Assembly (NCBI GenBank): GCA_025361505.1
Contig: JANYKZ010000098.1
Location: forward strand, 1-49,142
DNA: 49,142 bases
From: Coriobacteriia bacterium
GTDB taxonomy: Bacteria > Actinomycetota > Coriobacteriia > Anaerosomatales > PALSA-660
Direction: 5' to 3'
Position numbers and translations under genes: made by a program. Of this stretch, positions 18,186-30,111 are shown one piece after another (the first letter of the stretch is position 1; each line of letters opens with the position of its first letter). Under the pieces are notes generated by a model. The model made no database searches. It worked only from the letters and a program-made list of their open reading frames with translations, and was not told the DNA's origin.

Positions 18186-18227
18186 TTGACACCCCGCGAT
18201 GCGGGTTCATACTCGGAAACGTTTTCC
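18186..18227 (+). promoter_or_regulatory. Putative promoter (TTGACA-16-CATACT) with a LacI-type operator-like palindrome GGAAACGTTTTCC
   Basis: TTGACA 18186-18191; CATACT 18208-18213; CCCGC-GAT-GCGGG within the spacer; GGAAA-CGT-TTTCC at 18215-18227. Confidence 0.45.
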
Positions 18228-18284
18228 AAGGCGGGCCGGACAAATCCCCGGCAGGACCGGTCCGCACTGAGCTCCTGGAGACAC

Positions 18285-19385
18285 ATGGATCCGGTCCGGA
18301 CCGGCGAGGTCGCCTCGCCGTCAAGCGCTCCCGCCCTTTCGCCCGATCATGATCCCGCCCGTTCAGCCAAGATCGACACCTGGCTGTCCGTCGGCGTGTG
18401 GACCGTGGGTGTGTCCCTCGTCCTTCTCGCGGCGTTCTTCGCCTGGAGCGTCTACGCTCAGGGGCAGTCCGCGCGGCTGTCGTCCCCCGCGCTCCAGGTC
18501 GTCGACGCGCTCCAGAAGCAGGTGAACGCGAGCCCCAAGGACGCGACGCTCCACTCGCGGCTGGCTGAAGCGCTCGCGGCGGCGGGTATGCTCGATGAGG
18601 CCAAGGGCGAGCTCGCGTCCGCACTCCGGCTCGACCCCAACTACATCGGCGCCTTCGAGAACCTCGCGACCATCGAGCTGATCCAGAAGGACTACAAGGA
18701 CTCGGCGCTCCACTGGCAGCGGGTCATCGACCTCACCGGTGCGAGCGACATGCCCGAGGTCAACCAGCGGCGCGAGGTGGCGTTCTTCAACATGGGGCAG
18801 ATCGCCCTGATACAGAAGGACTACGTCGCCGCGGCCGGCTACTTCAACGCAGCCATCCGGATCAAGAAGGACGCATCCGACACCTACCTCCGACTCGCCC
18901 AGACCTACATCGGTCTGGACCAGAAGGACTCCGCGATGGAGCAGCTGAACATCGCGCTCGCGTTCGATCCGCGGTTCCCCGAGGCGCACTTCGAACGCGG
19001 CAGGTTGTACCTGGCCGCCGGCGACAAGGTGAGCGCGGCGTGGGACTTCCGGGCGGCCCTCGACGGCGCTCCCGACAACCCCGAGGCGCAGGCGGCGCTG
19101 GATTCCCTGGGCGCGTTCGAGACCTGGTACGGGCAGGCCGTCGCGGCCTCGACCGCCTCGGACGAGGCGTCCGCCGCCGTCGACGCCGTGCGGATCGCGC
19201 GCTCCATCCGGCCGGACAGCTTCGACGCCGCCATGCTCAACGGTCAGCTCCTCGAGCGCGCGGGCGACTCCGCCGGCGCGGTCGACGCGTACACCGTCGC
19301 CGCGAAGATCAAGCCGGGTGACCAGACCGCCGCCGCCGCGCTCAAGCGCGCGCAAGCAGCGGCCGACAAGAAGGCGGCCAAGTGA
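18285..19385 (+). CDS. Membrane-anchored TPR protein
   Basis: N-terminal TM (WLSVGVWTVGVSLVLLAAFFAWSV) followed by TPR-type helical repeats; ATG 18285 with GGAG. Confidence 0.88.
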   Translation: MDPVRTGEVASPSSAPALSPDHDPARSAKIDTWLSVGVWTVGVSLVLLAAFFAWSVYAQGQSARLSSPALQVVDALQKQVNASPKDATLHSRLAEALAAAGMLDEAKGELASALRLDPNYIGAFENLATIELIQKDYKDSALHWQRVIDLTGASDMPEVNQRREVAFFNMGQIALIQKDYVAAAGYFNAAIRIKKDASDTYLRLAQTYIGLDQKDSAMEQLNIALAFDPRFPEAHFERGRLYLAAGDKVSAAWDFRAALDGAPDNPEAQAALDSLGAFETWYGQAVAASTASDEASAAVDAVRIARSIRPDSFDAAMLNGQLLERAGDSAGAVDAYTVAAKIKPGDQTAAAALKRAQAAADKKAAK

Positions 19386-20866
19386 AGAGACGTCAGAGGC
19401 GGAAGGCCGCGCTGCTCGCAGTCCTTGCGATCGCGCTCGTGCTGCTGGGGCTGTGGTACTGGAACTTCAGGGCCACGAAGAGCATCCGCATCGACATGAG
19501 GGCCCTGCCGCAGGACACGGTGACCGCGCCGACCTATCTGTTCTCCTTCGCGGGTACCGCCGCGAACCACCTCCAGTCGCCGGTGGGCGTCCTGGCCGAC
19601 TCGGGCCAGGTCTTCGTCAGCGATGCGCAGGCGGGTCTCATCTTCGTGTTCAAGCAGGACGGGGCGTTCGTCCGCACCTTCGGAGCGGGCCACCTCACCG
19701 ATCCGCTCTACATCGCCAAGAACCCCAAGAGCGGGCTGCTCTACGTCGCGGATCGCCGCGAGCGGGCGGTCGTCATGTTCAAGGAGTCGGGCGAGTTCGT
19801 CGGCGTGTTCGATCCCAAGCTCCCGAAGTCGGAGCTTCCGAAGTTCGACACCCACGGCGATCAGTGGGTCCCGATCGCTCTGGGGTTCGCCCCCGACGGG
19901 AGCCTGTACGTCGCGGAGATCCTGAACGGTCAGCGCATCCTGACGTTCGCGCCTGACGGATCGTTCGTGCGATCGTTCGGCAGCGCCGGGGTCGCGAACA
20001 CGGTCACCGACCTTCCCGGCCAGTTCCAGTTCCCGAACTCGATCAAGGTCCACAACGACGAGCTGTGGGTCGTGGACAGCAACAATCGGCGCATCCAGGT
20101 GTTCGGACTCGACGGCACGTTCAAACGCTTCGTCGCCGTCTCGGGTCTGCCGCGCGGGTTGGCCTTCGTCAACCCCCCGACGAACTCCGCATCGGGGACC
20201 GTCGACGCCTTCGCGATCGTCGACGTCCTCTCCTCCGACGTCAGCATCTTCACGGTGGGCGGCACGACGCCGGCCACGTTCGGAGAGCGTGGCGTGGCCG
20301 AGGGCCAGTTCAATCTGCCCAACGACGTCTCGGTGGGGGACAGGTCGGTCCTGTTCGTGACCGACAACAAGAACGTCCGCGTCCAGGCGTGGGGGTGGAC
20401 GGTGAACGTCAGTCCGCTACCGCACATCCTGCCGCAGCAGCCGGCGTGGTTGCTGTTCCTGCTCCCGCTGCTCCTCCTGCCGCTCTTCTTCCGCACGAAG
20501 AAGTTCTACGCGACGTACGACTTCGTCGAGGCGATGCTCGACGCGGGCGTGGTCTCGCGCATGAAGGGCAAGCGGCGCACCTGGTTCGTCTCCGAGGAGG
20601 ACTACGAACGCCTGCGGGAACGCTCAGAGGGCGACATCATGCTCTCCGAACTGCTCGAAGCGACCGAGCACTCTCCCGAGGACGCGCGCGCCCTCAAGGA
20701 GCGCCTCGACATCGAGCAGGACCAGTCGGTCGTCCTCGCGGCTGCACAGCGCGTGAAGTACCTGTGCACCGAGAGCCCGGAGCTCCGCCGACTGGCGAAG
20801 ATCCTGGAGATCGACGTCCTCAATTCGACCGAGTTTCTCGAGCACTTCCCGCTGAAGAAGAAATAG
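19382..20866 (+). CDS. NHL-repeat (six-bladed beta-propeller) membrane protein
   Basis: Repeated blades (LQSPVGVLADSGQVFVSDAQAGLIFVF; PIALGFAPDGSLYVAEILNGQRILTFAPDGSFVRSFG; FNLPNDVSVGDRSVLFVTDN) flanked by two TM segments; GTGA overlap with the TPR gene. Confidence 0.88.
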   Translation: MKRRQRRKAALLAVLAIALVLLGLWYWNFRATKSIRIDMRALPQDTVTAPTYLFSFAGTAANHLQSPVGVLADSGQVFVSDAQAGLIFVFKQDGAFVRTFGAGHLTDPLYIAKNPKSGLLYVADRRERAVVMFKESGEFVGVFDPKLPKSELPKFDTHGDQWVPIALGFAPDGSLYVAEILNGQRILTFAPDGSFVRSFGSAGVANTVTDLPGQFQFPNSIKVHNDELWVVDSNNRRIQVFGLDGTFKRFVAVSGLPRGLAFVNPPTNSASGTVDAFAIVDVLSSDVSIFTVGGTTPATFGERGVAEGQFNLPNDVSVGDRSVLFVTDNKNVRVQAWGWTVNVSPLPHILPQQPAWLLFLLPLLLLPLFFRTKKFYATYDFVEAMLDAGVVSRMKGKRRTWFVSEEDYERLRERSEGDIMLSELLEATEHSPEDARALKERLDIEQDQSVVLAAAQRVKYLCTESPELRRLAKILEIDVLNSTEFLEHFPLKKK

Positions 20867-21214: not shown

Positions 21215-22630
21215 ATGGCAGTAACCAGAAGGGAATTCGTCACGACCCTCGGTCTGCTCGCAGCCGCCACTGGCATGGGCCAGATGGATCTTGCGAAGGT
21301 GACCGAAGCGTTCGCTCACGGAGGGCCGTGGGCGGGAGCGGCTTGGACCACCAAGCCCAAGGTCGTGTGGGTGCACGGTGCTGAGTGCACCGGGTGCTCG
21401 ACGTCGTTGTTGAGCCTGTTCGAAGACGCGACGGGTGTCGCGGTACCGGGTTCACCGCTCGGCGACGTGACCACCGCTCAGGCGCTCGCCGTCGTCGGCG
21501 GGGCCGGCGTTCTGTCAACGCCGCTTGCTGCGGCGGCGCTCAGCGCCGTTTCGGTGACGCACCCGAACGGGCATCGCACGCTGAACTCGAACCATCTGAA
21601 CGTCGACGGCAGCCCGTACGCCGTCAACATCGCCGATGTCCTGATCGACTTCATCGACCTTCAATACCATGAGACGGTCATGGGCATGGGCGGCGACGGC
21701 GCGTACGCGTACCTGAGCAACGAGATGACCCGCACCGACGCGAACCAGGTCCCCTTCGTCCTCGTGGTCGAAGGCGCCGTGCAGGACTTCAGCGGCGGCG
21801 GCTACTGGGGCAAGGCCGGCTCGACCGGCAACGCTCCGTGGTGCGCGATCGCCAAGGACGGCACGCACGACACCGACATCGACCTGAGCTTCGACGACGT
21901 CGTCGAGAAGCTCGCGACCAACGCGCACTGCCTGGCCGTCATCGCCATCGGCCAGTGCGCCGCGTTCGGCGGCTATCCGGCCTGCATCGGCCCGGACCTG
22001 CCCTCGAACGGCAGGAACGCCATGGGCCAGACCGGCGCCAAGGGCGTCTACGACTTCCTCATCGCTCGTGGCGCGGTCGGCGGCGCTCATGCCCCCGCGA
22101 CCGCCGCGGCCGGCAAGGTCGTCAACGTCCCCGGCTGCCCCGCCAACCCGTGGTGGTTCACGCTGACCGTCGTGGCGTGGCTCGTCGACGTCGTGACCGG
22201 TCCCGGCGCCGCCGTACCGACCACCGGAGCCCTCGGGATCCTCGGCTCGGACTTCAGCATCGTCGGAGGCGTCGACAGCCAGCGCCGTCTGACCGCCGTG
22301 TACGGCAACCTCCTTCACGGCAAGTACTGCCCGCGCTACCCGAAGTACGCCGCCCGCATCTTCGCCAGCAAGCCCGGCGACGACGGCTGCCTCAAGAACA
22401 TCGGCTGCAAGGGCCTGTCGACGATGTCGCTCTGCGGCCGTCACGGCTGGAACTCGCAGCAGCCGCAGAACACCGCGGCCGGCCTGAACGACGCCGTCGA
22501 GGCGCTCGCCTACAAGTCGACCGACGGCACGACCAAGATCGGCGGCTTCTGCATGACCGCCGGCGCTCCGTGCATGGGCTGCACCGAAAAGGGCTACCCG
22601 GACGCCTTCACCCCGTTCGTAGTCCGCTAG
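21215..22630 (+). CDS. [NiFe] hydrogenase small subunit, Tat-exported
   Basis: TRREFVTTLG Tat signal; WVHGAECTGCSTSLL; IGQCAAFGGYP; VPGCPANPWWF; HGKYCPRYPKY; IGCKGLSTMSLC; GAPCMGCTEKGYPD. Confidence 0.95.
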   Translation: MAVTRREFVTTLGLLAAATGMGQMDLAKVTEAFAHGGPWAGAAWTTKPKVVWVHGAECTGCSTSLLSLFEDATGVAVPGSPLGDVTTAQALAVVGGAGVLSTPLAAAALSAVSVTHPNGHRTLNSNHLNVDGSPYAVNIADVLIDFIDLQYHETVMGMGGDGAYAYLSNEMTRTDANQVPFVLVVEGAVQDFSGGGYWGKAGSTGNAPWCAIAKDGTHDTDIDLSFDDVVEKLATNAHCLAVIAIGQCAAFGGYPACIGPDLPSNGRNAMGQTGAKGVYDFLIARGAVGGAHAPATAAAGKVVNVPGCPANPWWFTLTVVAWLVDVVTGPGAAVPTTGALGILGSDFSIVGGVDSQRRLTAVYGNLLHGKYCPRYPKYAARIFASKPGDDGCLKNIGCKGLSTMSLCGRHGWNSQQPQNTAAGLNDAVEALAYKSTDGTTKIGGFCMTAGAPCMGCTEKGYPDAFTPFVVR

Positions 22631-22652: not shown

Positions 22653-24605
22653 ATGGCAACTCTGAAGTACGAAGTAGACCCGATCTCCCGCATCGAGGGA
22701 CACCTCGGCGTGAAGGTCTCGGTCGACAGCGTCACCGGCAAGATCACCGAGGCGAACGCTCACGGCAACCTGTGGCGTGGTTTCGAGAACTTCCTGATCG
22801 GCCGTCGTGTCAACGACGCCATCACGTTCACCCAGCGCATCTGCGGCGTCTGCCCCGTCCCGCACGGGACGGCCTCGACGTTCGCGGCCGACAGCGTCCT
22901 GGGTGTCAGCAACGGCTACATGACCTTCGCGCAGACCGATGAGGTCGGGAACCCTGCAGGCGACGGTGTGCCGGAAGCCGCGGTGCTGGTCCGCAACATC
23001 GTTCTCGCGTCCGAGTTCCTGATGTCGAGCCTGACCCACTTCTATCACCTGGTGGCCCAGAGCTACGTCCAGGGCCCGCCGATCCCGCCGTGGACCCCGT
23101 ATTTCCCGGACGCCCAGTACCACAACGCGCTGAAGAGCGCCGGCAAGACCATCCCGGTCGTCGACTCCAACGGCGTTCCGGCAGAGCTGTGGTCCGCCGT
23201 CATCAAGCAGTACGTCAAGGCCTTGCGCATCCGCCGTCTGGCACTCGAGGCGGGCGCGCTGTTCGCAGGCCGCATGCCGATGATGTCGATGTCGGTCGCC
23301 GGCGGCACCACGAACCGGTTCAAGGACCGCGCGGACTTCATTGCGAAGTGCGACGCCTACCGGGGGATGATCGAAGAGGTCGGTCGTTTCGTGATCTCCG
23401 AGTACATCCCGCTGGCGCTCGCTCTGTCCTACCTGTATCCGCAGTACGACAACGTCCTGAACGCTGCAGGTGGAGTTCAGGGTGAGGGTTACGGCGGTGG
23501 CCTCGGCAACTTCCTGGCCTGGGGAGCGTTCCCGGGCACGGGCACCAACAAGGCGGCCGGCACGCTCGCCATCAAGGGCGGCTGGGTGCTGAAGGACGGC
23601 ACCAGCGGCGACCTGCTCATCAACCGCGCGAACCTCACCGCAGCCAAGACCGCGGTCGAGGGGAACCTCAAGGAGGTCATCTCCCGCTCGCGCTATGCGA
23701 ACACGCACGGCTACGAGGGCGGCGACGTGGCGTATCCGGGTTCCGTCGACGCGACCGAGCCCGTCCGCAACCAAGAGACGACCAAGTACTCCTGGATGAA
23801 GGCCCCCCGCTGGAACGGCAACGCGATGGAGGTCGGCCCGCTGGCGCGCATGGTCGTCAACGGCAAGTACCTCGTCAACGGCGGCAACCTCGTCACGACC
23901 GGCCACGCCGGCGTCACGGGCGCCTATGGCGACCTCTATCTCAACGCCGGCCAGACCGGGCTCGACACGACCGTCATCCACAGTGATCTGCAGGCCGGTC
24001 TCGTCGGCACGCTCGGCGCCGGCGCTCTGACCGCTGTCGGGGGCCACATCCTCGCGATGAAGGGCGGCCTCTCCACGATGGACCGCCTGCGCGCCCGCGC
24101 GATCGAGTCGTTCTGGATGATCAACTACCTCGTGGGTGGCGCGACCAAGGGCACCGACTCGGACCACATCTCGTTCGCGGGTGGCTGGATCGACGAGCTC
24201 AAGGCGCTCTGGCCGTCCAACGGCAGCCAGCCGAAGTTCTACCGCGACACGACTCCGCCTCCGGGTGTGGTCTCCGGCTACGGCCTGACCGAGGCCCCGC
24301 GTGGCGCTCTGGGCCACTTCGTCACGGCGGCCTCAGGCAAGATCGTCTCGTACCAGTGCGTCGTCCCGACGACCTGGAACGGCTCCCCGAAGGACGGCGG
24401 CACCGACACGACGGTCATCCCGCTGGACAACAGCGGAGCGGTACATCGCGGTGCGATGGAGCAGGCGATGATCGGCGTGCCGTTCAACGCCGGCGTGACC
24501 ATCGCGGCCGACGCGACCACAGGCAAGCGCGCCGCGCTCAGCGGCGTCGAGGTCCTGCGTGTCGCCCAGTCCTTCGATCCGTGCATCGCGTGCGCGGTCC
24601 ACTAG
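22653..24605 (+). CDS. [NiFe] hydrogenase large subunit
   Basis: DPISRIEGHLGVKV, RICGVCPVPHGTAS (L1), SFDPCIACAVH-stop (L2); ends at the maturation cleavage His. Confidence 0.96.
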   Translation: MATLKYEVDPISRIEGHLGVKVSVDSVTGKITEANAHGNLWRGFENFLIGRRVNDAITFTQRICGVCPVPHGTASTFAADSVLGVSNGYMTFAQTDEVGNPAGDGVPEAAVLVRNIVLASEFLMSSLTHFYHLVAQSYVQGPPIPPWTPYFPDAQYHNALKSAGKTIPVVDSNGVPAELWSAVIKQYVKALRIRRLALEAGALFAGRMPMMSMSVAGGTTNRFKDRADFIAKCDAYRGMIEEVGRFVISEYIPLALALSYLYPQYDNVLNAAGGVQGEGYGGGLGNFLAWGAFPGTGTNKAAGTLAIKGGWVLKDGTSGDLLINRANLTAAKTAVEGNLKEVISRSRYANTHGYEGGDVAYPGSVDATEPVRNQETTKYSWMKAPRWNGNAMEVGPLARMVVNGKYLVNGGNLVTTGHAGVTGAYGDLYLNAGQTGLDTTVIHSDLQAGLVGTLGAGALTAVGGHILAMKGGLSTMDRLRARAIESFWMINYLVGGATKGTDSDHISFAGGWIDELKALWPSNGSQPKFYRDTTPPPGVVSGYGLTEAPRGALGHFVTAASGKIVSYQCVVPTTWNGSPKDGGTDTTVIPLDNSGAVHRGAMEQAMIGVPFNAGVTIAADATTGKRAALSGVEVLRVAQSFDPCIACAVH

Positions 24606-24631
24606 AGGAAGCAACGGAGGTGACAAGTACT

Positions 24632-25915
24632 GTGAAAAGGATCGCATTCGTACTACTGACCGCGTGCGCCATCGTCTTCGCCACCGCGGGAGTCGCGTTC
24701 GCCAACTTCGGACCGCACGGCGGGTACCTCAGTGACACCGACGCCTGCGCCGGTTGCCACCGCGCCCACACGTCGTTCTCGACCACCGGCTGGACCGACC
24801 TGCAGGGCGCTCAGCGCGCGAGCGCGTTGCTGGTCTCGAGCGCCACGAACATGACGGACTTCTGCTACGCCTGCCACGGCAACGGGGCACCCGGCGCCAG
24901 CACGAACGTCCAGAACGGCATCTACGACTCGGGCCCTTCGGGCACGGCCACCGCATCGCCCAACGGCACCACGATCTTCGCAGCGACGAACTCCTCGTAC
25001 GACACGACACTGAACGGCGGCGGTTTCGACAAGATCGGCTCGTCCGCCTCTCCAGTCATGTCGTCGCACAACATGGGGACCGTCCAAGGGTCGCTGGTCC
25101 GTTGGGGCTACGCGGATCCGAACGGCGGCGCGTCGAACCTCACGCCCATGGCGAGCTTCGGCTGCAACGACTGCCACGATCCTCACGGCAGCTCGAACTA
25201 CCGCCTGCTCAAGGACCAGGTCAACGGGGTGACCGTCGGCGGCTACGTCGGGAACAACACCCCGAACGCCTACGTCATCTCGAACGAGCAGGGCTTCCCG
25301 TTCGGCGGATTCAAGAAGGGCGCGCTGGGAGCGGCGGACATCGCCAACTACGTCCCGAACTACACGGCGCCCGAGTACGCGAAGCTCCCCGGCAGGGCGA
25401 TGTCCACGTGGTGCTCGGCATGCCACACGGACTACAACGTGACCGACGGCTCCAAGGACAGCAGCCTCACCGCGTACACCTACGGTACTGCTGAAGGCGC
25501 CAAGGTCCGCCATCGCCACCCCGTGGACATCGCGCTCTCCGTCGGCACGAGCCTCGATCCCGCGAACCGGGCCCTCAACACGCCCGTGCTCAACGATCCC
25601 GGCCTGCCGCTCGAGATGGGCTTCGGTCTGGTCGCTTCCGGCAAGACCCACACGTCCGCTGTCATCTGGGACACCACGGGCAACATCTCGTGCCTGACGT
25701 GCCACCGCGCTCACGGTTCGAACTCGACCATGACCGGCTGGGCGGTCGCGGACATCGTCCCGACCACCGGCGGCTTCGGTCCGGTCAAGCTCGCTCCCGG
25801 CAACCCGGCCAACCCCGGCAGCCTGACCAACCCGCTCGGCGTCGCCCCGAACTACTCCGGCGCGATCCTGCGCTTCGACAACCGTGGCGTGTGCGAACGC
25901 TGCCACAACAAGTAG
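24632..25915 (+). CDS. Secreted hexaheme c-type cytochrome
   Basis: Signal peptide VKRIAFVLLTACAIVFATAGVAFA; six CXXCH motifs (CAGCH, CYACH, CNDCH, CSACH, CLTCH, CERCH); GTG start 24632 after GGAGG. Confidence 0.93.
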   Translation: MKRIAFVLLTACAIVFATAGVAFANFGPHGGYLSDTDACAGCHRAHTSFSTTGWTDLQGAQRASALLVSSATNMTDFCYACHGNGAPGASTNVQNGIYDSGPSGTATASPNGTTIFAATNSSYDTTLNGGGFDKIGSSASPVMSSHNMGTVQGSLVRWGYADPNGGASNLTPMASFGCNDCHDPHGSSNYRLLKDQVNGVTVGGYVGNNTPNAYVISNEQGFPFGGFKKGALGAADIANYVPNYTAPEYAKLPGRAMSTWCSACHTDYNVTDGSKDSSLTAYTYGTAEGAKVRHRHPVDIALSVGTSLDPANRALNTPVLNDPGLPLEMGFGLVASGKTHTSAVIWDTTGNISCLTCHRAHGSNSTMTGWAVADIVPTTGGFGPVKLAPGNPANPGSLTNPLGVAPNYSGAILRFDNRGVCERCHNK

Positions 25916-25982: not shown

Positions 25983-26056
25983 GCACCCCGAATCGGCATC
26001 ACCGGATGGTGCCGCGTTTGCTGTGTGAACGAACCGGACGAACCCGAGGAGACATC

Positions 26057-27421
26057 GTGTCCGACACGACCGTGACGCCTGGGACCACCGACTACACGAG
26101 CCTCGGCTTGGTGGCCAATCCGTTCCCGCCGGTCGACCCCTGCGGTGCCGATCCCGGTTGGATGCGCCTCGTGACCCGCGCGGCCGCGAACCGGCTGCTC
26201 TCCGCCACGCTGCGGGCGCGCCGGCGCTCCGGTCCCGTGCTCGTGACGATGGTCGACGAGGTCCCCGAGTACTACTACCGCGTCGCGCAGAACGACTTCC
26301 TCGCGCGGACAGCGGAGCCCGGGCTGGGCATCATGGCCCTGAGCATCCCGCTGGAGATGATGAAGCTGGGTCGCATCCGGGCGACCCTCGCCGAACTCGC
26401 CGAGTTGATCGCCGCGGTGGACCTTCCCCTGACTTTGGCGGAGTGGTTCGGCGCGCAGTTGCAGACGCCCGACACGGAGCTGCCCGAGTACGCACACGTG
26501 ACGCCGGAGGAGCTGGCTGAGGCGGCTCACTCCTTCGCCGACGACCCGCACGCCGCGGTCGACCGCTATCTGGAGGTCGGCTCCGAGCCGGTCTCCGTCG
26601 CGGAACTGGATGCCGTCGTGCACGAGGCCTACCTGCGCCAGGTCGCGCAGCAGGTCGACCCCGAGAAAGGGGAGGAGTCGCCCGACTCCGCCGAGCCCGT
26701 CGCACGCGGTGCGGCTGACGAAGCCGCGACGGAAGGCGAGGACGCGGAGCCGGTGCGCCCCCGCGACGCCCTGATGCGCGACTACCTCTTCGCCCTCGCG
26801 CGGACCCGGCTGTCCCCGGTCATCTCGCGCGCGCTGGAGGGCTTCGGCGCATACGGCGAATCTCTGACCGCCCAGGAGCTCAAGGTGACGAAGGCGCCGC
26901 GCAAGACGCTCGGCGCGGTCCTTCGCCTCATGAACGCCCGGTGGGACAACATCACCATCATCTATGACAACTTCGACGCGTGGCCCCTCCTCGATCAGCA
27001 GACGAAGATGGATGTGCTCGCTTCTCTCACGGAACTGCGCTGGATCATCGCGGAGGGGGGCGTCATGGTCGTCGCCGTGTTCAAGGGCCGCACGGTCGAG
27101 CTCGAGGAGCAGTTCGCCGCCGCGGAACAGGTCGACTGGTCGATGCCGGAGTTGACGCCGCTGTACGGCGGGGCAACCGCCTTCGACGCCGGATGGGTGC
27201 AGTCATGGCTCGATTCCGCCTCGATCGAGGGCCCTTCGCGCTTCCGGGCCGACGGTCCCGAACTGGCGCCGCTGGTCGCAGCGTCGGGCGCCGACCTCGT
27301 GACGTTCTCGGCGATGGCCGAGGCCGCGTTCCGCCACGCCGCCGAACGATCGGTCGACCATCTCGACCCCGAAGCCGTCGCGTCGGGCATCGAGGCGTAC
27401 GTCAGCAAGGGGGCGAGCTGA
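26057..27421 (+). CDS. Degenerate AAA/STAND-like ATPase-fold protein (no P-loop)
   Basis: GLVANPFPP start, Walker B-like ITIIYDNFDAW, sensor-like GGVMVVAVFKG, but no GxxGxGK[ST]; GTG start 26057. Confidence 0.6.
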   Translation: MSDTTVTPGTTDYTSLGLVANPFPPVDPCGADPGWMRLVTRAAANRLLSATLRARRRSGPVLVTMVDEVPEYYYRVAQNDFLARTAEPGLGIMALSIPLEMMKLGRIRATLAELAELIAAVDLPLTLAEWFGAQLQTPDTELPEYAHVTPEELAEAAHSFADDPHAAVDRYLEVGSEPVSVAELDAVVHEAYLRQVAQQVDPEKGEESPDSAEPVARGAADEAATEGEDAEPVRPRDALMRDYLFALARTRLSPVISRALEGFGAYGESLTAQELKVTKAPRKTLGAVLRLMNARWDNITIIYDNFDAWPLLDQQTKMDVLASLTELRWIIAEGGVMVVAVFKGRTVELEEQFAAAEQVDWSMPELTPLYGGATAFDAGWVQSWLDSASIEGPSRFRADGPELAPLVAASGADLVTFSAMAEAAFRHAAERSVDHLDPEAVASGIEAYVSKGAS

Positions 27422-28203: not shown

Positions 28204-30111
28204 ATGACGCAGCGCACATGGCTCGCAGCTCCGCTCGCGATGCTGTTCGTCGTCCTCACACTGGTCGCGCCGGCGATGGCGTCGGCAGCCGGGCAGCCGG
28301 GCATCGGCCCGATGTCCGTCGTGGCCACGGAGACCTTCGAGGGCGCGACGGCTCCGGCCCGGCTCACCCTCGACTGGATCACCACGTTCGACGACCTCAC
28401 GGGCCTTCCCGTCCCTCCCTCCGCGTACTGGGGACGTGTCACGGCCACAGGCCGCTCCCACTCGGGGACGCACGGCTTGTGGTGCGCCGGGGGACGGCCG
28501 GACGCGAGTTGGATCACGACGAGCACCGCCACCGCCGGCACCTGGAACGTCTCGACCGCTTGGGCTGACTTCAGCCACACGTACCCGGCGTTCACCGGCG
28601 GGCTCGCGACCTTCGACGTCTCCGAACTGAAGGACTACTACTCCGCCACGCTGGACTACCAGTACCTCATGCCGTCGATCGGCCCCGCCGACTACGATGC
28701 CTTCATCGTGAAATGGCGCGCCGCGGGGACCGGGTCCTGGGATGCGCACAGTGACCAGGCCACGGCCACCGTGTGGACCCCGAAGAGCTACGCGCTGACG
28801 GCTCCGGGGGCGGGGGGCAACGCGATCGACCTGTCCCGAACCGGCGGCGAGGTCAGCTTCCAGTTCTACGTGGCGGGGGGTGGCTCCCCGTTCGAGGGCC
28901 CCACCATCGACGACGTGACCATCAAGGGCTACAAGTACGGCCCGGTGCGCAACCTCGCGGCCGCCGTAGGGCCCTCGGGGGTCCATCTCTCGTGGAGAGT
29001 CCCCGCGCGCTCGACGGCCGCGTCCTCCGCCGACGAGGAGCGCACGGTCAGCTACCGCGTCTGGCGCGCGTCCGAGTCGGCACCCGACACGTGGGTGGAG
29101 CTGACGGACACGCGCGCCACGGCGACAAGCTTCGATGACGCCGCTCCGCTCGACGGCGTCGCGAACTACATCGTGCAGGCATGGGACCAAGGCGCGGGCG
29201 CAGGCTACGGCGAGCTGGCCGTCGCCGCACGGGCCACCGTGATCCCGCCCGTTCCTGTCTCCACGATCATCGTCACCGGCGGCACTCCGGTGGGTGGCGT
29301 CTACACGACCATGCCGACCATCACCGTGTCGCGCGACACGGCTCGGGGCACGACCTACTACCGCTGGGACTCGGGCACCTATGCGTCGAGCGCCCTCACC
29401 ACGCTCGACGTGCCCGCGCTCGAAGGCACCCACGTGATCGAGGTGTATTCGGCCAACTCGATGGGCGTCGCCGAGACGCCCCACGTCACGAAGACGATCA
29501 CGGTCGCGATCCCGACTCCCGGCCCGGCGCCCGTCACCACGATCGCGGTGAGCGGCACGCCCGGGACCGGCGGCGCCTATACGGCCACGCCGACCATCAC
29601 CGTATCGAGGGACCAGCCCGGCGGGACCACGTACTACCGCTGGGATTCCAACGACTTCGCCGCGACCACGGCCGCGTCGTTCCCGCTTCCGGCGCTCCCG
29701 GGGCTCCACACCCTCGAGGTCTACTCGCTGAGCGCGACAGGGGTCCTCGAGCAGCCGACGGTGGCCCGGGCCCTGACGGTCAACGTCCCCCCGGCGAAGA
29801 CGAAGCCGGCGGTCTCGACTCCTTCACTCTCAACGACCTACATCCGCCACAACAAGGCGTTCTACATCCGCGGCAGTCTCGCCCCATCGCACGCCTCGGC
29901 CACGACGATGAGGGTGTACGTGTACCGCTACTACAGTCGCGCGTACCGTCTCTACCGGTCGTACACGGTGACGCTCGCGCCCGGCGCGACCTCGTACGCG
30001 ATCAAGTCGTCGCTCGGCACCACGGGGAGCTACGAGGTCAGGGCGTACCACACCTGCACGCTCCACACGGCGACCTACTCGGCGTACCGGAAGTTCACGG
30101 TACACACGTAG
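28204..30111 (+). CDS. Secreted surface protein with FN3-like and tandem CHB/HEX C-terminal-type domains
   Basis: Signal peptide; two repeats ITVSRD-(TARGTTYYRWDS / QPGGTTYYRWDS)-...-HVIEVYSANS / HTLEVYSLSA. Confidence 0.85.
   Translation: MTQRTWLAAPLAMLFVVLTLVAPAMASAAGQPGIGPMSVVATETFEGATAPARLTLDWITTFDDLTGLPVPPSAYWGRVTATGRSHSGTHGLWCAGGRPDASWITTSTATAGTWNVSTAWADFSHTYPAFTGGLATFDVSELKDYYSATLDYQYLMPSIGPADYDAFIVKWRAAGTGSWDAHSDQATATVWTPKSYALTAPGAGGNAIDLSRTGGEVSFQFYVAGGGSPFEGPTIDDVTIKGYKYGPVRNLAAAVGPSGVHLSWRVPARSTAASSADEERTVSYRVWRASESAPDTWVELTDTRATATSFDDAAPLDGVANYIVQAWDQGAGAGYGELAVAARATVIPPVPVSTIIVTGGTPVGGVYTTMPTITVSRDTARGTTYYRWDSGTYASSALTTLDVPALEGTHVIEVYSANSMGVAETPHVTKTITVAIPTPGPAPVTTIAVSGTPGTGGAYTATPTITVSRDQPGGTTYYRWDSNDFAATTAASFPLPALPGLHTLEVYSLSATGVLEQPTVARALTVNVPPAKTKPAVSTPSLSTTYIRHNKAFYIRGSLAPSHASATTMRVYVYRYYSRAYRLYRSYTVTLAPGATSYAIKSSLGTTGSYEVRAYHTCTLHTATYSAYRKFTVHT

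Follow-up and report, generated by a model that had tools for sequence, protein, structure and literature searches.

The window, a 49,142-nucleotide stretch of contig JANYKZ010000098.1 (assembly GCA_025361505.1) from a Coriobacteriia bacterium of the order Anaerosomatales, carries a hydrogenase operon in which the genes for the small subunit, the large subunit (LSU) and a hexaheme cytochrome follow one another, with a beta-propeller gene upstream (Table 1). The LSU matches Pfam family PF00374 (E = 2e-72), and its AF2 model (pTM 0.82, with modest confidence in the final 70 residues) finds its closest PDB matches among [NiFeSe] hydrogenase large subunits (E about 1e-30, TMt 0.77–0.81). The small subunit, whose Cys ligands match those of [NiFeSe] small subunits when aligned to 2wpn, including the extra medial-cluster Cys, starts MAVTRREFV. 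An earlier note on this DNA had called the enzyme Tat-exported, which is borne out by this start, by TRR[EQ]FV starts in 18 of 19 orthologues and by a TatC gene in the same genome. No C-terminal membrane anchor was seen on the window small subunit.

Table 1. Features of the hydrogenase operon and its neighbours, in window positions
Feature	Position	Strand	Basis or remark
TPR protein, upstream neighbour	18186..19385	+	Neighbourhood annotation
Membrane-anchored NHL beta-propeller protein, conserved upstream neighbour	19382..20866	+	PF01436
Hydrogenase small subunit, 471 aa, Tat signal (MAVTRREFVTTLG)	21215..22630	+	PF14720, PF01058
[NiFe] hydrogenase large subunit, extensionless mature form, 650 aa	22653..24605	+	PF00374, AF2 model
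RICGVC, N-terminal metal-binding motif (C64, C67)	22836..22853	+	Direct reading; invariant in clade alignment
DPCIACAVH, C-terminal motif (C644, C647, terminal H650)	24576..24602	+	Usual protease cleavage site is the natural C-terminus
TAG stop directly behind the LSU His codon	24603..24605	+	All 19 orthologues stop here, with TAG or TAA
GGAGGTGA, Shine-Dalgarno of the next gene (hexaheme cytochrome)	24616..24623	+	10 bases past the LSU stop; kept in relatives
Secreted multiheme cytochrome c, 6 CxxCH, likely redox partner	24632..25915	+	PF09699, PF14522
'GL(V/M)ANPF' protein, about 450 aa, conserved downstream neighbour	26006..27421	+	No Pfam match
Predicted secreted protein, conserved downstream neighbour	28204..30111	+	Neighbourhood comparison

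The six-heme gene lies directly 3′ of the LSU gene in all relatives with flanks read, a gene of about 500 aa similar to the beta-propeller gene is present in relatives, and two or three more conserved genes follow 3′ where flanks are long enough (L144, L146, L148, L149 and L150). We infer that the enzyme is extracytoplasmic and exchanges electrons with the hexaheme cytochrome, a partner that makes an uptake-type role plausible as the predicted direction of catalysis. No group 4 membrane ion-pump subunits were found in the operon, and no kinase, methyl-accepting chemotaxis protein (MCP) or cyclase in the neighbourhood of the window enzyme or its orthologues. The 'GL(V/M)ANPF' protein, a possible accessory factor, has an ATPase-like Walker B region and no clear Walker A; its gene is absent beside L151, the tail-bearing sister described below.

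The window LSU ends in VAQSFDPCIACAVH (SFDPCIACAVH) followed by TAG; the frame continues as RKQRR to a second stop, a stretch that shares bases with the GGAGGTGA Shine-Dalgarno of the cytochrome gene. The earlier note had read this as an LSU that stops at the maturation cleavage histidine without the usual C-terminal extension (tail), and had suggested an alignment of homologues as a check. Among 300 genomes of the class, the enzyme was found in 20, including the window's, all of one order, and the reading holds throughout: no orthologue in the order carries an extension, and the terminal His is the last residue in all 19 readable orthologues, the window's included, with zero extra residues (DPCIACA[VI]H, then the stop). 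Their LSUs range from 609 to 737 aa (n = 19), yet the C-terminal endpoint is constant; the stop is TAG in 15, TAA in 4 and never TGA. The codons past the stop are unrelated between orthologues, mostly belonging to the GGAGGTGA Shine-Dalgarno of the next gene, and no conserved peptide follows the stop in any of the 19. Two truncated copies (G130 and G148), not readable as one piece, stand outside this count; the separate C-terminal piece of the G130 LSU also ends at His, as do four further database records (L147–L150).

Across the window clade the alignment conserves the four metal-binding Cys, the EAPRG region and the terminal His, and it shows little or no variation in the active-site Cys motifs and the last nine residues, which argues that the enzyme is under constraint. 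A pseudogene reading of the window LSU was tested and rejected. One orthologue, in G056, has an in-frame TGA at the C67 codon (RICGV-TGA-PVPHG; L142:2458-2475, contig C45; also L152), a position held by Cys in G118 of the same genus; a hairpin around and after this TGA, a possible SECIS, gave z = -2.2. The TGA may encode Sec at a bridging ligand, reflect a sequencing error or mark a dead gene.

In the tree of large subunits the window LSU is placed inside the group-1-type rows, and its best sequence matches are [NiFeSe] hydrogenases of Desulfovibrio and Desulfomicrobium at 27–29% identity. It scores 306.6 bits against the curated group-1 model NF033181, below the 600-bit cut-off, as a divergent relative, and we therefore use the label 'group-1-type'. 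The enzyme has the group 1 features of PF00374 with RxCGxC and DPCxxC and a Tat small subunit; the tail and the cognate HyaD/HybD protease, which are usual for group 1 though not strictly defining, are absent. With the [NiFeSe] enzymes of D. vulgaris and Dm. baculatum, its HydDB 1a/1i kin, it shares the fold, the RICGVC and DPCxxC motifs, the Tat small subunit and the cluster-binding Cys pattern. Unlike these kin, it has Cys644 (TGC) in DPC where the selenocysteine (DPU) that marks [NiFeSe] enzymes would stand, is about 150 residues longer, and has neither C-terminal tail nor cognate protease.

Group 2b regulatory hydrogenases are cytoplasmic and are not known to be exported by Tat. Those of the HoxBC/HupUV type resemble the window enzyme in a large subunit that naturally ends at His (PMC7294309), but are defined by the lack of a Tat signal and linked to a histidine kinase (HydDB), whereas the window enzyme carries a Tat signal, has no kinase partner, and is exported and cytochrome-linked. 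The enzymes of groups 4c, 4e and 4g (CooH, Ech) likewise have no tail (PMC7294309), but are membrane complex-I-like modules, none of whose partner genes occur at the window locus. A further parallel is the Ralstonia eutropha membrane-bound hydrogenase (MBH), a Tat-exported group 1 enzyme that matures tail-less after genetic removal of its tail (Hartmann et al. 2020, PMC7294309); there the state is engineered and comes with lowered membrane levels, whereas in the window enzyme it is natural and established throughout a clade.

Either model, TIGR00072 or PF01750, finds a single maturation-protease gene in the window's genome (1.9 Mb, 90% complete). This gene lies on contig C39, about 2.4 kb from the large subunit of a selenocysteine [NiFeSe] hydrogenase with a 19-residue tail (VIEPKTGKQSFVMSKPTGR). 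The earlier note had proposed a search for an orphan HyaD-family protease; an orphan is rejected, because this single gene is the partner of the Sec hydrogenase. We extended the comparison to all [NiFe] large subunits and all TIGR00072 proteases in the 20 genomes with a window-type enzyme; PF01750 alone undercounted, missing the S. elongatus protease and those encoded next to VhuA-like LSUs, and with TIGR00072, which recovered them, the count became exact. Tail-bearing classes in these genomes are a main Sec, a second Sec, a group-3b-like and a group-3c-like (VhuA-like) type; tail-less ones are the window enzyme and a second, cytosolic, sulfhydrogenase-like type. The number of proteases equals the number of tail-bearing LSUs in 20 of 20 genomes, for a total of 39 = 39 in which the tails of G132 and G136 are inferred from class, so that none is left over for the window enzyme. 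Even G142, with two copies of the window-type enzyme, has two proteases that are both accounted for by other hydrogenases. HypD, a marker of the Hyp cofactor machinery, is encoded in 19 of the 20. Protease-independent maturation, as the earlier note had suggested, is thus well supported from gene content: no homologue has an extension, and the proteases are all accounted for by tail-bearing hydrogenases.

Other hydrogenases of these genomes vary in their own right. In G044 (L132, contig C8) the group-3b-like LSU lacks the 8-residue tail YLDVEFV[RG] through a loss that also took the protease next to it, whereas the group-3b-like enzymes of G041, G068, G090 and G130 (L127, L128, L129 and L130) keep both; by this comparison, G044 is a natural experiment in recent tail loss. 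The Sec [NiFeSe] hydrogenase (DPU) on contig C39 of the window's genome (G000; L002), with its tail and protease, recurs, intact or in fragments, in the clade's genomes; only the second, divergent Sec type occurs in G054, while G090, G098 and G128 have both. The sulfhydrogenase-like LSU of the window's genome (L137:2933-4192, contig C101) is tail-less, ending in RSYDPCLSCAVH before its stop, and is found without a protease in many Anaerosomatales.

A GTDB-wide scan for related loci, which yielded 80, and a tree of 98 large subunits revealed tail-less group-1-type LSUs beyond the window clade. The window clade forms 11 rows with support 100, and its sister is L151, an actinobacterial enzyme with the tail EIEPKEDMNMKQFVVSEGGATK. 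A single clade of tail-less group-1-type rows is rejected (p-AU 5e-57), and the tree needs four changes, hence at least four tail losses among these rows; two of the four are single sequences, L199, whose small subunit has no Tat signal, and L223. In a wider set of 77 group-1-type loci, a protease gene is no more than 5 kb away for 40 of the 52 genes with a tail and for none of the 25 without (Fisher 2e-11, a p value that ignores relatedness); an independent-pairs test gave 4 contrasts, 2 of them concordant with loss of the linked protease and 0 discordant, which is too few for significance. The genome of L151 (G300; also L234) contains two tail-bearing large subunits and one protease was found in it; loss of the protease may come before loss of the tail, or the draft genome may be incomplete.

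The second large tail-less clade comprises 23 Tat-exported rows from many phyla (Planctomycetota, Verrucomicrobiota, Pseudomonadota, Thermodesulfobacteriota, Riflebacteria and others). Where the flanks are long enough, most members show the gene order LSU, Tat small subunit and MCP, the last recognized by the Pfam domain MCPsignal and often HAMP, with CheA and CheW as well in L153. Members with an adjacent MCP are L153, L156, L157, L159, L161, L166, L168, L173, L178, L179, L180, L188, L192, L197, L200, L210 and L226. Three draft genomes with enzymes of this clade (L166/G306, L195/G315 and L210/G320) encode HypD, and the only true [NiFe] large subunit of each is tail-less; no maturation protease was found in them, and the concordance of the three makes it likely that the protease is truly absent. 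The only chemotactic class of HydDB is [FeFe] (C2), its [NiFe] sensors being linked only to kinases or diguanylate cyclases (PMC5037454), and from its gene order the MCP-linked clade is a candidate extracytoplasmic H2 chemoreceptor absent from the [NiFe] classes of HydDB 2016. On balance we lean slightly towards a general reading in which tail and protease were lost repeatedly in Tat-exported [NiFe] hydrogenases, whose export quality control would then operate without proteolysis, the MCP-linked clade serving as an H2 receptor for chemotaxis.

The coincidence of sensing and tail loss beside chemotaxis receptors raises the prospect that the window enzyme, too, senses H2 outside the cytoplasm and lacks a tail for the reason that the regulatory hydrogenases do. 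We regard this as unlikely, as its conserved partner is a hexaheme cytochrome, and the kinase, MCP or cyclase of a sensor is missing beside it and its orthologues. Slightly less probable still is that the tail-less enzyme continues to use the HycI-family protease of contig C39 in a non-proteolytic role, as chaperone or Ni sensor. Every genome with a window-type enzyme (20 of 20) has one or more such proteases, and a stable complex of protease and large subunit is described for a Salmonella hydrogenase (PMC5299533); yet the tail-bearing partners fully explain the protease count, and the MCP-linked exported clade includes genomes in which no such protease was found.

That the LSU is a non-catalytic or degenerate scaffold in need of no maturation would accord with its large, variable insertions, with its score of about half the cut-off of the curated group-1 model (306 against 600 bits) and with the TGA at an active-site Cys codon in one orthologue. 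We consider it very improbable, given the clade-wide conservation of the metal ligands, the EAPRG region and the terminal His and the conservation of its operon, which includes the Tat small subunit and the cytochrome. The predominance of TAG (15 of 19, TGA in none) could be taken to hint at programmed readthrough that adds a tail, as an alternative to a premature stop created by sequencing error, but independent assemblies concur, four orthologues have TAA instead, and the post-stop sequence is unrelated among relatives and overlaps the ribosome-binding site of the next gene. Stops of either kind at one place, with unrelated codons downstream, therefore exclude an error or a readthrough tail, and likewise a chance stop, for practical purposes; the chance that such a reading is correct is minute, and the earlier note's view that the TAG is no sequencing artefact stands.

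The tail is the textbook Ni-insertion checkpoint of [NiFe] hydrogenases, thought to be most important for exported enzymes, whose maturation must be complete before Tat export. Gene and genome content lead us to conclude that the window encodes, with high probability, a Tat-exported group-1-type enzyme whose LSU is translated with its mature C-terminus and matured protease-free, the tail having been lost once in the clade. In such a scheme the Hyp proteins would load Fe(CN)2CO and Ni into the LSU, the C-terminal segment would close the site by itself, and Ni insertion and closure, not proteolysis, would clear the LSU to dock with the small subunit that carries the Tat signal. Once folded, the two would be exported together and exchange electrons with the co-encoded secreted hexaheme cytochrome. 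Tail loss would have occurred at the base of the Anaerosomatales clade, as an event separate from the extensionless groups already known.

The earlier note went beyond the data in suggesting that no Ni-insertion checkpoint operates here: absence of the tail removes that one checkpoint, and an intrinsic one is equally compatible. Rejection of the apo-large subunit by the small subunit has been proposed for the R. eutropha regulatory hydrogenase and the tail-less MBH (PMC7294309, PMC12134894), and by analogy such an intrinsic checkpoint is the one we would favour for the window enzyme, at perhaps an even chance. E. coli Hyd-2 from which the tail was removed artificially reaches the outside cofactor-free (PMC12134894, PMC7294309), so it is no trivial matter for an exported enzyme to do without a tail.

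Reviews list naturally tail-less large subunits in groups 2b, 2d, 4c, 4e and 4g (PMC7294309, PMC12134894), in agreement with the premise of the earlier note that extensionless enzymes are confined to sensing and some energy-converting groups. In the mostly open-access literature searched, we came across no description of a Tat-exported group 1 enzyme that is naturally tail-less, and for the first cultured member of the Anaerosomatales a group 1i enzyme with its protease and a group 3b enzyme are reported, not the window type (PMC9686372). Tail-less large subunits are thus known elsewhere; a natural, order-wide tail-less clade of exported group-1-type enzymes, as the sequences indicate here, appears to be new. 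If true, export quality control of Tat-exported [NiFe] hydrogenases can work without proteolysis. The presence of tail-bearing relatives in the same cells would offer a direct route to finding what replaces the checkpoint, and an exported enzyme with neither tail nor protease may provide a simpler hydrogenase for heterologous production.
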